Of a stretch of DNA of 34,443 nucleotides, positions 9,920 to 15,548 are shown one piece after another. The stretch is from contig JAKITY010000007.1 in the NCBI GenBank assembly GCA_021647835.1, forward strand, positions 1 to 34,443. The letters are read 5' to 3'. A model generated the notes under the pieces. The model was not told the DNA's origin, ran no database searches, and saw only the letters and a program-made list of their open reading frames with translations. The first letter of the stretch is position 1. The number at the start of each line of letters is the position of its first letter. Both the position numbers and the translations under genes were made by a program. This DNA is from Flavobacteriaceae bacterium. GTDB lineage: Bacteria; Bacteroidota; Bacteroidia; Flavobacteriales; Flavobacteriaceae.

Positions 9920-11470
9920 ATGATTTTTAAAAACAAATCCCCTAAAGCAATTACATATGTTCTTTTTATAACATTCTCTTTATTTGTATTTCAAAATTGC
10001 TCTACAGAAAATATCGATTTAGACCCTGATAATGACGGGATAACAGGAACTTTAGATAATTGTCAAAACACAGCAAATCCAGACCAAGAAGATAGTGATA
10101 ACGATGGTTTAGGAGATGCTTGTGATGATGATGATGACAACGATGGAATACCTGATGCAGACGATAACTGTCCAACAGTTGCAAATCCTAATCAAGAAGA
10201 TTTTAACGATAATGGTGTTGGTGATGTGTGTGAAGATAGTGATGGCGATACTATTTTTGATGCTGTTGATAATTGTATAGATATAGAAAATCCTAACCAA
10301 GAAGATTTTGACAATGACGGTATTGGAAACCTTTGTGATGAAGATTATACCGCGCCAATTAGCCCTTGCGAAGATGGAATGGCAGGAATATACCCTTGCG
10401 ATGGATATGATTTAATGGGTTTTGTAGATGTTGCTGATTTAGGAGGAGTCGAAGGAAATGATTCTTGGGGCTGGACAGACCCAACAACCGGAAAAGAATA
10501 TGCCATTGTTGGAACAAACACAGGAACTGCTTTTATAGATATATCCGATACCCAAAATTTATTAGTTTTAGGAACGCTTCAAACTGCAACTACCAACAGT
10601 TCTTGGAGAGATATTAAAGTATATAACGATTACGCTTTTATAGTAAGTGAAGCTTCAGGACACGGAATGCAAATATTCGATTTAACAAGATTAAGAAACG
10701 TTACAAGTGCTCCTGAAACATTTACTACAGATGCGCACTATACTGGTTTTGGAAATGCGCATAATATTCTTATCAATGAAAATACAGGTTATGCGTATGC
10801 CGTAGGAACAAATACATTTAGTGGAGGAGCGCACTTTATAAACATACAAGACCCTATAAATCCTGTTGCCGCAGGAGGATTTTCTGCTGGAGGATATAGT
10901 CATGATGCACAAGTCGTTACTTATACTGGTCCAGATAGTGATTATATAGGACGTGAAATTTTTGTTGGAAGCAATGGAAATAAAATTGTCATTGCCGATG
11001 TTACTGATAAAGCAAGTCCTGTTTTAATAAAAAATATAACTTATGGTAGCATTGCTTACGCACATCAAGGTTGGTTTACAGAAGATTTAAAGTATTTCAT
11101 TGTAGGTGATGAACTTGATGAATGGAATTTTGGGGGAAATACAAAAACACTAATATTTGATTTCACCGATTTAGACAATCCTTTTTTAGATACAACCTAC
11201 ACAGGACCTACAACAGCAATTGATCATAACGGATATGTAAAAGGAAACACCTATTATTTATCTAATTATAGTGCAGGAATACGCTTTTTAGATATTTCTG
11301 ATATTGAAAACGGAAACATTGTTGAAGAAGGGTTCTTTGATAGTTTTCCAACACATGATAATACAAGTTTTAATGGCGTATGGAGTGTATATCCATATTT
11401 TGAAAGCGGAAATATTATTATAAGTGATATTGAAAAAGGACTACTAATTGTAAGAAAAAGTGGAACTTAA
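9920..11470 (+). CDS. Choice-of-anchor B (LVIVD-repeat) lipoprotein with thrombospondin type-3 Ca-binding repeats
   Basis: Signal peptide ending FQNCSTENID; DxDxDG repeats (DPDNDGITGTLDNC, DSDNDGLGDACDDDDDNDGIPDADDNC, DSDGDTIFDAVDNC); propeller-like DISD/LVLGTL repeats. Confidence 0.85.
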   Translation: MIFKNKSPKAITYVLFITFSLFVFQNCSTENIDLDPDNDGITGTLDNCQNTANPDQEDSDNDGLGDACDDDDDNDGIPDADDNCPTVANPNQEDFNDNGVGDVCEDSDGDTIFDAVDNCIDIENPNQEDFDNDGIGNLCDEDYTAPISPCEDGMAGIYPCDGYDLMGFVDVADLGGVEGNDSWGWTDPTTGKEYAIVGTNTGTAFIDISDTQNLLVLGTLQTATTNSSWRDIKVYNDYAFIVSEASGHGMQIFDLTRLRNVTSAPETFTTDAHYTGFGNAHNILINENTGYAYAVGTNTFSGGAHFINIQDPINPVAAGGFSAGGYSHDAQVVTYTGPDSDYIGREIFVGSNGNKIVIADVTDKASPVLIKNITYGSIAYAHQGWFTEDLKYFIVGDELDEWNFGGNTKTLIFDFTDLDNPFLDTTYTGPTTAIDHNGYVKGNTYYLSNYSAGIRFLDISDIENGNIVEEGFFDSFPTHDNTSFNGVWSVYPYFESGNIIISDIEKGLLIVRKSGT

Positions 11471-11471
11471 A

Positions 11472-12809
11472 ATGAACTTAAATAGTTTAAAAAATAAAAA
11501 AATACTCTTAATAGTATTCTCTTTTATTCTTATTGGATGTTCAAAAAGTGAAACTCCTATTAAGCCAACACCTCAACTTGATTTTGTCAAAAATTTTGGA
11601 GGAACTAAAAATGAAAGAGCCCAATCTGTAATAAAAACAAATGATGGCGGTTATGCCGTTTTAGGTTTTACACAAAGTATTGATGGAGATATAACAGATA
11701 AAACCGTTGAAAATTTTGATTATTGGCTTTTAAAATTTGATAGTAATGACATCTTACAATGGTCAAAAACCTATGGAGGATCTAATGATGAAAGAGCCTT
11801 TAAAATCATACAAACCAACGATGGAGGTTATGCTTTTGTAGGATATTCAAATAGTAACAATGAAGATGTTTCAACAAATGCAGGACTTGATGATATTTGG
11901 ATTGTAAAAACAGATGCTTCTGGAACTATTATTTGGGAGAAATCACACGGTTTTTCTGGTAACGATCAAGGATTTTCAATAATTCAAACTACAGATAATA
12001 AATACCTAATAACTGGAGTTTTAGATGTAACAGCATCTGGAGGAAATGGAAATGACCGAAGTGCTCAACACGCAGGAGGAGATTATTGGACTCTTAAATT
12101 AGACACTAACGGAGATAAAATTTGGCGAAGATACTTTGGAGGAACACTTACCGATTCATCTTATGACGTTGTTAGCACAAATGACAATGGATTTATACTC
12201 ATTGGTTCTTCTGATAGTAACGATGTAGATATTACCAACAACAAAGGAACGTATGATTTTTGGATTGTAAAAATTGACACTGATGGAAATCAAGTATGGC
12301 AAAAATCTTTTGGAGGAAGCCAAATAGACGAAGCAAAAAGTATTGTAAAAACAACTGACGGAAATTATTTAATAGTTGGAGACAGTAGAAGTAGTGATGT
12401 AGATGTTACAAATTCAAAAGGAGCCGCAGATATTTGGCTTATTAAAATTTCTGATGAAGGAAACCTTATTTGGAAAAAATCCTATGGAGGAAGTAGTTTT
12501 GATGCAGCAAGACATATTTCTTCAACATTAGATGGCGGATATATTATTGCTGGAAGTTCTAGAAGTCAAGATATTGATGTTAATATAAATCAAGGGCAAA
12601 ACGATGCTTGGATATTAAAAATTGACAATGCTGGAAATATAGAATGGCAAAAATCTTTTGGAGGAACAGAAATAGATTTTGCATATAGCACTGTGGAACT
12701 AAACAACCAAAGCATTATTGTTGTTGGAGAAAGTAATAGTTCTAATGGAGATGTACTTGAAAACAAAGGTTTTTCAGATCTACTAATAGCAAAAATAAAA
12801 CTACAATAA
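11472..12809 (+). CDS. Putative surface lipoprotein, predicted seven-repeat beta-propeller
   Basis: Lipobox ILIGCSKSE; about seven repeats of the form ...NDGGY(A/I)xxG(Y/S)SxS...DxWxxKxDxxGNxxWxKSxGG. Confidence 0.75.
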   Translation: MNLNSLKNKKILLIVFSFILIGCSKSETPIKPTPQLDFVKNFGGTKNERAQSVIKTNDGGYAVLGFTQSIDGDITDKTVENFDYWLLKFDSNDILQWSKTYGGSNDERAFKIIQTNDGGYAFVGYSNSNNEDVSTNAGLDDIWIVKTDASGTIIWEKSHGFSGNDQGFSIIQTTDNKYLITGVLDVTASGGNGNDRSAQHAGGDYWTLKLDTNGDKIWRRYFGGTLTDSSYDVVSTNDNGFILIGSSDSNDVDITNNKGTYDFWIVKIDTDGNQVWQKSFGGSQIDEAKSIVKTTDGNYLIVGDSRSSDVDVTNSKGAADIWLIKISDEGNLIWKKSYGGSSFDAARHISSTLDGGYIIAGSSRSQDIDVNINQGQNDAWILKIDNAGNIEWQKSFGGTEIDFAYSTVELNNQSIIVVGESNSSNGDVLENKGFSDLLIAKIKLQ

Positions 12810-12823
12810 AACACTAAAAACAT

Positions 12824-13579
12824 ATGAAATCTTTAAAACTTATAGTTGCATTTACACTTCTGTTTTTATTAACTGGATGTGAAGAAAATGAAGAAAATAC
12901 CATAACACACGGCTCTTTAACTATTAATTTTTCTCACTATTGGGACGCTGAAAAAATAACTTCAGCAGATTTCAACGCAACAACATACACGAATGAAAGC
13001 AATAATATCCTAACCATTAGTCAATTGCGCTATTTAATTTCTAACATCACTTTACATAAACCTGATGGAAGTAGCATAGAACTATTAGACCATTATTTAG
13101 TTAATTTAGAAGGGTTAAGTAGCAATACCTCTATCACTATTTCTGGCACTGCTATTGACACTTATTCTAGCCTTTCTTTTACCTTCGGATTTAACGAAAC
13201 AGACAATGTCGAAAACTATATTGACTTAAATTCTGCCTCTTGGAATTGGCCAGAAATGCTTGGCGGAGGATACCACTTTATGCAATTTGAAGGAAAATAT
13301 GGCGCAACAGGAACCGAAAACCCATTTGCATATCATATGGGAACTGCAAGAGTAAGTACAGGCGTTTTTGAATCAAATCATTTTGATGTCTCTCTTGAAG
13401 GTTTTTCTACTAATGAAAACACAACGATTGAAATCAAAATGAATCTTGAGCAATGGTTTGAAAATCCGAATACTTGGGACTTAAACACCTACAATACCAA
13501 TTTAATGTCAGATTATAATGCACAAAAAATGATGCAACAAAACGGCGCATCTGTATTTAGTTTAGGAGAAATCAATTAA
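12824..13579 (+). CDS. MbnP-family lipoprotein
   Basis: Lipobox LLTGCEENEEN; HGSLTINFSHYWD, ISQLRYLISNITLHKPDG, SASWNWPEMLGGGYHFMQFEGKYG, NPFAYHMGTA resemble MbnP proteins; adjacent to a di-heme peroxidase gene. Confidence 0.8.
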   Translation: MKSLKLIVAFTLLFLLTGCEENEENTITHGSLTINFSHYWDAEKITSADFNATTYTNESNNILTISQLRYLISNITLHKPDGSSIELLDHYLVNLEGLSSNTSITISGTAIDTYSSLSFTFGFNETDNVENYIDLNSASWNWPEMLGGGYHFMQFEGKYGATGTENPFAYHMGTARVSTGVFESNHFDVSLEGFSTNENTTIEIKMNLEQWFENPNTWDLNTYNTNLMSDYNAQKMMQQNGASVFSLGEIN

Positions 13580-13587
13580 TAAAAAAA

Positions 13588-14658
13588 ATGAAAAATCTAA
13601 TAAATCTTATTTGTTTAGCACTTCTGTTTAGTTCGTGTAATGAAAGTGAAATAGAAACTTACACACAACACGTTCCAACACCATTAGCATTAGAAATTCC
13701 TCCATTATTTGCCGATAATATTTTACCTCCAGTAATTCCAATAAACAACCCTCAAACAGTTGAAGGCGTTGCTTTGGGGAGAAAATTGTTTTTTGACACT
13801 ATTTTATCTGGAGACAATACACAATCTTGTGCAAGTTGTCATTCTCCAGAAACTGCCTTTTCAGATTCAAACCAGTTTAGCACAGGAATTGATGGATCTT
13901 TAGGAGGTAGAAACTCAATGCCTATTTTTAATTTGGCATGGAATTATGATGAAAATTTTTTTTGGGACGGAAGAACATTTAGTCTTGAATCACAAGCCTT
14001 ACAACCTGTAATAAACCCTATAGAAATGCACAACACATGGGTTTTGGCAGTTGCCGATTTACAAAACGACACACAATATCCTAATCTCTTTTTTGAAGCC
14101 TTTGGTACGACTACCATCGATTCGGTTTTAGTAGCAAAAGCAATTGCACAATTTGAACGCACTTTAATTTCTGCAAACTCAAGGTTTGACAAACATTTAC
14201 TCGGAGAAATTACTTTAACAACATCAGAATTGAACGGATTTAATATTTTTATGGACGAATCAAAAGGAGATTGTTTTCACTGCCATGGAAATGCCAACAA
14301 TCCACTTTGGACAGACAATAAATTTCACAACAATGGTTTAGACGCTATTTTTACCGACTACGGTTTAGGATATATTACAGGTGATCCAGCAGACAATGGT
14401 AAATTTAGATCTCCATCTTTAAGGAACCTACAATTTACAGCACCATATATGCATGACGGCAGATTTAACACCTTAGAAGAAGTAATTAATCATTATTCCG
14501 AAGGATTGGTAAACTCCCCAACAATCGATCCTTTGATGAAAAACGTAGATGATGGAGGCGTGCAACTTTCTAACTCAGAAAAAATAGATTTAAAAGCATT
14601 TCTTCTTTCACTTTCTGATGAAGAATTTACCACAAACCCCAATTTTCAAGCGCCGTAA
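13588..14658 (+). CDS. Di-heme cytochrome c peroxidase / MauG-MbnH-like lipoprotein
   Basis: Two CxxCH motifs (SCASCH, DCFHCH); GRKLFFDTILSGDNTQSCASCHSPETAFSD, RSPSLRNLQFTAPYMHDGRFNTLEEVINHY; lipobox-like LFSSCNESE. Confidence 0.88.
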   Translation: MKNLINLICLALLFSSCNESEIETYTQHVPTPLALEIPPLFADNILPPVIPINNPQTVEGVALGRKLFFDTILSGDNTQSCASCHSPETAFSDSNQFSTGIDGSLGGRNSMPIFNLAWNYDENFFWDGRTFSLESQALQPVINPIEMHNTWVLAVADLQNDTQYPNLFFEAFGTTTIDSVLVAKAIAQFERTLISANSRFDKHLLGEITLTTSELNGFNIFMDESKGDCFHCHGNANNPLWTDNKFHNNGLDAIFTDYGLGYITGDPADNGKFRSPSLRNLQFTAPYMHDGRFNTLEEVINHYSEGLVNSPTIDPLMKNVDDGGVQLSNSEKIDLKAFLLSLSDEEFTTNPNFQAP

Positions 14659-15110: not shown

Positions 15111-15548
15111 TTTATAAAGTTGTAAAGTTTTTAAAGTTAAAAAGTAATGGCAAAGTTTAATTCTTTTGAAGAAATCTTATCTTGGAAAAAAGCACGAGAA
15201 CTAAATCTAATTATATATAAAATTACAAATTTAAACCCTTTGTTTTCAAAAGATTTTGGGTTAAAAGACCAAATAAGAAGAGCATCTGTCTCAATCTCTT
15301 CAAATATAGCTGAAGGTCTTGAAAGACAAACAACCAAAGAATTTATTAGATTTCTATATATTGCTAAAGCATCAGCAGGAGAAGTTCGGTCTCAATTATA
15401 CCTTGCTTTTGATATAAAATATATTGAAAAAGAAGCGTTTGAAAAATTGAAATTAAAAGTAAATGAAGTTTCTAAATTGATAAGTGGATTGTTAAAATAT
15501 TTACACTCAACTTTATAACTTTAAAAACCTTACAACTTTATAAACTAA
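15107..15548 (+). mobile_element. IVS-like element: terminal-inverted-repeat-flanked four-helix-bundle gene between the sufA-like gene and sufB
   Basis: Left arm 15107-15145 ttagtttataaagttgtaaagtttttaaagttaaaaagt; right arm 15510-15548 reverse complement ttagtttataaagttgtaaggtttttaaagttataaagt; 37/39 positions match. Single ORF inside. Confidence 0.75.
15147..15518 (+). CDS. Four-helix-bundle protein (23S rRNA intervening-sequence / S23 family)
   Basis: 123 aa; [67 protein letters not shown] is the family signature. Confidence 0.92.

Follow-up and report, generated by a model that had tools for sequence, protein, structure and literature searches.

A divergent MbnP-MbnH lipoprotein pair of Bacteroidota with a predicted kynurenine copper site

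The stretch of DNA analysed here (34,443 nucleotides of contig JAKITY010000007.1 from a Flavobacteriaceae bacterium, in the following called the window) encodes a genuine and divergent member of the MbnP-MbnH kind. Its most likely product is a kynurenine-containing copper site on the cell surface. In the mechanism that we infer, both proteins would be exported and lipidated, and MbnP, probably together with MbnH, would be flipped to the cell surface. The two c-type hemes of MbnH would oxidise Trp140 of MbnP, the first Trp of its WxW motif, to kynurenine, which together with His171 (possibly also His151 or His38) would bind one copper ion. The bound copper would then serve surface copper scavenging or handling. 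Taken as a whole, we consider the reading as a surface-located Bacteroidota pair with a Kyn140-based site for copper scavenging or handling to be fairly probable. What is unusual about the clade of the window pair is that its target motif drifts while the enzyme persists.

Identification of the MbnP-MbnH pair

The two genes are located on the same strand and are separated by 8 bp (Table 1), exactly as given in the preliminary description, whose naming of an MbnP-type protein and a di-heme MauG/MbnH-like protein is borne out by the profile searches. The first protein matches the Pfam family PF20243 (E 1.2e-33, 117 bits at a gathering cut-off of 27) and the second one CCP_MauG, PF03150 (E 7.5e-57, 192.6 bits at a cut-off of 25.6). 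The best NCBIfam models are TIGR04052 (MbnP_like_WxW) with 26.5 bits, under the equivalog cut-off of 140, and TIGR04039 (MbnH family), best by 77 bits, with 258.9 under a cut-off of 362.85; since other Bacteroidota pairs miss the same cut-offs (MbnP 52-58 bits, MbnH from loci of the types B and C described below 198-223), this shortfall reflects the tuning of the models and not a difference of kind.

Table 1 Features of the conserved unit in the window
Feature	Position	Strand	Basis
Choice-of-anchor B family protein, thrombospondin type 3 repeats, lipobox Cys; opens the conserved unit	9920-11470	+	TIGR04312 E 1.4e-167, TSP_3
Beta-propeller lipoprotein, SBBP-type repeats; ATG start at 11472 more likely	11460-12809	+	AF2 pLDDT 90.5; Foldseek
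MbnP-family lipoprotein, predicted to be the substrate and to carry the copper site, 251 aa	12824-13579	+	PF20243; structural match 7L6G
Lipidated Cys19 and acidic residues CEENEEN of MbnP, candidate surface-export signal	12878-12898	+	acidic enrichment in homologues
WxW motif Trp140-Asn141-Trp142; Trp140 predicted kynurenine	13241-13249	+	aligned to 7L6G WNW via profile A2
His151, clade-specific candidate ligand	13274-13276	+	His in 44/48 type A; almost always Lys/Arg in types B and C
His171, candidate copper ligand	13334-13336	+	invariant 78/78; aligned to 7L6G His via profile A2
MbnH-like di-heme lipoprotein, predicted to oxygenate a Trp of MbnP, 356 aa	13588-14658	+	PF03150, TIGR04039, PDB 6E1C
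Heme-binding motif 1, C81-A-S-C-H85	13828-13842	+	conserved in 77/78
Trp126 (WDG), candidate inter-heme Trp	13963-13965	+	aligned with 6E1C Trp; W in 77/78
Heme-binding motif 2, C229-F-H-C-H233	14272-14286	+	CxxCH in 78/78
Tyr303 (EVINHYSEG), candidate axial heme ligand as in MbnH/MauG	14494-14496	+	aligned with 6E1C Tyr

The fold of MbnP points to the same family. Against its AlphaFold2 model (mean pLDDT 88, 44 aligned sequences as input), the Methylosinus trichosporium MbnP 7L6G, with six chains, was the sole PDB entry to match below E 1e-3, the best match having an E-value of 3.6e-9 and a TM-score of 0.59 by query. Sequence searches of the PDB with the window MbnP alone, which detected no solved structure, or with a profile of its clade (A1) found no MbnP. 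A profile of WxW-rich relatives, in which types B and C are abundant (A2), finds 7L6G by sequence with an E-value of 0.0012.

Among solved structures, the window MbnH is closest to the MbnH structure 6E1C (E 4.9e-53); bacterial cytochrome c peroxidases and MauG rank behind it. Next to Trp126 and Tyr303, Glu146 and the two CxxCH motifs are also aligned with 6E1C, and these three residues and both CxxCH motifs are kept in nearly all of the 78 same-family homologues, Tyr303 being shifted in the seven of type C. By homology to MbnH, Trp126 and Tyr303 would act as inter-heme Trp and axial Tyr, respectively. In the type C proteins (L060-L069), the PYMHDG of almost all others is replaced by PYGSFG and the next Tyr is displaced (YFDNG), so they may coordinate heme differently.

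Pairing and distribution

MbnP was found in 72 of 151 genomes of Flavobacteriaceae and in 78 of 297 genomes of a sample of the phylum Bacteroidota. An MbnH-like open reading frame directly follows MbnP in all 78 same-family loci and in all 29 phylum-wide loci that were read (107/107), and therefore the pairing is not due to chance. Its presence across both samples indicates that MbnP-MbnH is an ordinary and widespread gene set of Bacteroidota. The spread of the pair beyond methanobactin producers has already been noted (PMC3621798). A search of genome contigs with the window MbnP as single query gave eight relatives, seven of them from Flavobacteriaceae members or Lutibacter/Flavobacterium, and the nearest named relatives belong to Lutibacter and other Flavobacteriaceae. 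The evolutionary distances of MbnP and MbnH correlate with 0.71, which is little above the values of either protein with SufC (0.56 and 0.64), and we therefore make no claim of co-evolution.

It could also be that no kynurenine is formed at all, that MbnH is a surface or periplasmic peroxidase and that MbnP binds a metal via His and Met only. The 69%-complete genome yielded no further CCP/MauG protein, a second MauG/CcpA included, so MbnH could serve as its peroxidase, and the pair is kept in homologues with Phe at position 140 (see below). However, many MbnP-bearing relatives do possess further CCP proteins, MbnH has its best alignment with 6E1C, the axial-position Tyr being matched as well, and the strict adjacency together with the conservation of Trp140 fits a dedicated substrate. 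We hold the peroxidase reading to be quite improbable.

Target motif and candidate copper ligands

The preliminary description had proposed a W-rich segment of MbnP, SASWNWPEMLGGGYHFM, as the target of MbnH. This segment comprises residues 137-153 and contains the WxW motif. In the alignment of profile A2, the stretch MlWsWqaGYkf sits on GMAWNWQAGRRF of 7L6G, which holds the WNW of that protein, and the invariant His sits on the His of MVHVGS. Manesis et al. (2021) reportedly identified the leading one of the two Trp residues in WxW as the site of kynurenine formation in MbnP. We take Trp140 to be the counterpart of this residue. The choice of the segment as target is thus supported, since Trp140 corresponds to the leading Trp of the motif in the alignment and 73 of the 78 homologues have Trp at this position, the other five having Phe. 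A conserved Trp at the aligned position, on which the proposal had been made to depend beforehand, is present in the window.

Export signal and location

After the lipid-carrying Cys, MbnP homologues have on average 2.65 acidic residues at positions +2 to +6 versus 0.83 at +7 to +11. For the MbnH homologues the means are 1.63 versus 0.93 (in the window, the lipobox Cys of MbnH is C17, in the context CNESEIE), and a Lys-rich control lipoprotein of the suf region gave 1.25 versus 1.35. A surface-lipoprotein signature had been ascribed to both proteins; the claim stands for MbnP, where the signal is strong, and becomes much weaker for MbnH. The MbnP consensus C-S/N-x-D-D-D fits the pattern of the lipoprotein export signal LES, a polar residue followed by several acidic ones. 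It resembles the signals SDDDD and SDDFE, which were shown to be functional in Capnocytophaga in the work that defined LES (PMC5080379). Judging from these signals, MbnP is likely located at the cell surface, and the same location is plausible for MbnH.

Genomic settings

In the window, two beta-propeller-type proteins, MbnP and MbnH form a four-gene unit upstream of suf. This is the type A arrangement (48 of 78 loci, window included), in which the genes for a choice-of-anchor B protein (at position -2 or -3 of MbnP), a propeller lipoprotein (at -1), MbnP and MbnH are followed by sufA-sufB-sufC-sufD. The AlphaFold2 model of the propeller lipoprotein can be read as seven-bladed, and its top Foldseek matches are the CylK propeller (E 1.2e-24). 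Type B (20 of 78 loci) consists of a small CNGKC protein, MbnP, MbnH and an outer-membrane-like protein. In type C (7 of 78), a YtkA-like lipoprotein and a TonB receptor-like protein, both with weak Pfam matches, precede MbnP and MbnH, a setting that looks like one for metal uptake. Three of the 78 loci fall outside these types.

Some further observations concern the surroundings of the pair. In type B loci (L033-L054), the CNGKC protein encoded before the pair is a small membrane protein without a Pfam match, and a protein encoded after it contains the stretch CDLCGCTT; both are possibly metal-related. Within the suf operon, between sufA and sufB, the window encodes a 23S rRNA-intervening-sequence-type protein (15147-15518, + strand, PF05635, E 3.4e-37), and a small number of other loci have related open reading frames close to suf. 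An Rfam scan gave nothing, and promoter and terminator scans gave counts at chance level.

About 70 of the 151 genomes have choice-of-anchor B and propeller genes in front of suf, with or without MbnP-MbnH (L110-L129 among them). Since type A is defined by the propeller neighbour, the complete overlap of type A and propeller (49/49) is circular and not evidence for an association; this evidence is limited to a clade of 44 pairs defined by sequence, in which the propeller adjoins MbnP/MbnH in every case, and to the empty sites. The latter were seen among 20 genomes with propeller genes lacking an adjacent MbnP, in most of which sufA directly follows the propeller gene and the pair is cleanly missing.

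MbnP and MbnH might be mere neighbours on a stable chromosomal segment, as the flanking suf genes are equally stable in order without a functional link. However, the pair is intact in three unrelated contexts, and at an otherwise intact site both genes are absent together; this makes the lack of any joint function hardly credible. In the MbnH tree, the pairs of four type A loci (L034, L048, L050, L057) fall together with types B and C. Two pair lineages therefore occupy one site, which suggests that MbnP-MbnH was replaced in place at these loci.

A link of the reading favoured here to copper uptake is suggested by homology. Against this reading, there is no recognisable copper gene within the window, and the adjoining propeller genes have no known role connected with copper. 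Nitrous oxide reductase was considered as a copper consumer and rejected, since NosZ is present in 26 of 49 type A genomes versus 48 of 102 others (p 0.6); it is also absent from a 99%-complete genome of the same genus.

Altered target motif in the clade of the window pair

A long branch of the MbnH tree leads to a supported clade that consists of 44 type A pairs, and the window pair belongs to this divergent clade. Its MbnP proteins mostly have His38 and His151; the corresponding residues of types B and C are Asn and Lys/Arg, respectively. Three Trp residues, Trp40, Trp211 and Trp218, are conserved in type A only. The second Trp of the motif, residue 142, is replaced by Val in 35 of the 44 proteins, and none of the 27 loci of types B and C lacks WxW. 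The state of this residue is coupled to that of residue 173, two positions after His171: among all 78 proteins, Trp occurs with Gly in 43 of 43 cases and Val with Ile or Val in 35 of 35. Each of the two residues changed six times on the tree, and the changes are joint in all four well-supported independent comparisons. The window MbnP retains the Trp142/Gly173 state, as do types B and C.

A subclade from five genera (L076, L089, L106, L107, L108) goes one step further and has Phe at position 140, a change that arose once on the tree. The sole Trp residues shared by these MbnP proteins are the equivalents of Trp40, Trp211 and Trp218. Their MbnH partners, which are approximately 70% identical to one another, keep both heme motifs, WDG, PIEM and the Tyr. 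MbnH is hence retained without its canonical target, and Kyn140 formation by MbnH cannot apply throughout the clade. The simple model leaves this retention unexplained.

MbnH of this clade might oxidise one of the other Trp residues of MbnP, for which the shared Trp residues of the Phe140 proteins and the intact heme features of their partners speak, as does the restriction of these residues to type A. Its target might also be a surface protein, for instance the Trp-rich propeller adjoining the pair throughout the 44-member clade; in either case, WxW would be becoming vestigial. However, 39 of the 44 proteins, that of the window included, still have Trp140, its loss in the Phe140 subclade is a single event and the propeller gene is often present without the pair. 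We therefore regard such an alternative target as unlikely. The corresponding evolutionary scenario, in which the enzyme-substrate relation of the clade has shifted by remodelling of WxW (W142/G173 to V/I, then W140 to F) and MbnH now oxidises another MbnP Trp or the surface propeller, is in our estimation rather unlikely; if true, it would mean a new target for the MbnH enzyme family at the cell surface.

Comparison with known systems

To our knowledge, kynurenine as a copper ligand occurs in very few proteins, all of them from methanotrophs. The closest characterised counterpart of the window pair is MbnP/MbnH of M. trichosporium OB3b (7L6G, 6E1C), with which it has in common the fold, the WxW motif, the invariant His, the adjacent gene for a di-heme partner and the Tyr at the axial position. 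In contrast to the OB3b proteins, to which the sequence identity of MbnP is very low, those of the window are lipoproteins with a Bacteroidota surface signal, and MbnP of the window clade has the clade-specific His38 and His151 and three extra Trp residues. A further difference concerns methanobactin: a relative of MbnB (PF05114) was looked for as the criterion of a methanobactin operon, and the 69%-complete genome of the window gave none. Bacteroidota pairs, here without sign of methanobactin genes, make a role outside methane oxidation testable in culturable bacteria.

CorA/CorB of Methylomicrobium album and MopE/SACCP of Methylococcus capsulatus resemble the predicted arrangement in being surface-associated, in their copper site of kynurenine and His and in a co-transcribed di-heme cytochrome (PMC3912023). 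For CorA/MopE, a site of kynurenine and two His is established, the ligands in CorA being Kyn62, His64 and His114 (PMC3912023). However, their motif is W-x-H and not the W-x-W of the window MbnP, and structures of CorA and MopE are absent among the listed fold matches of the MbnP model. MbnH also belongs to the same di-heme, Trp-oxidising superfamily as MauG, which acts in tryptophan tryptophylquinone biosynthesis, but it scores 181.6 with the MauG model TIGR03791 (cut-off 443.85), and its partner is MbnP and not a dehydrogenase subunit.

Within Bacteroidota, types B and C share with the window the same two genes, the WxW motif and the LES-like signal, whereas their neighbours differ. Together with the clade of the window pair, these bacteria offer a natural series of WxW, WxV and FxV with intact MbnH, i.e. 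ready variants for finding out what MbnH needs in its substrate.
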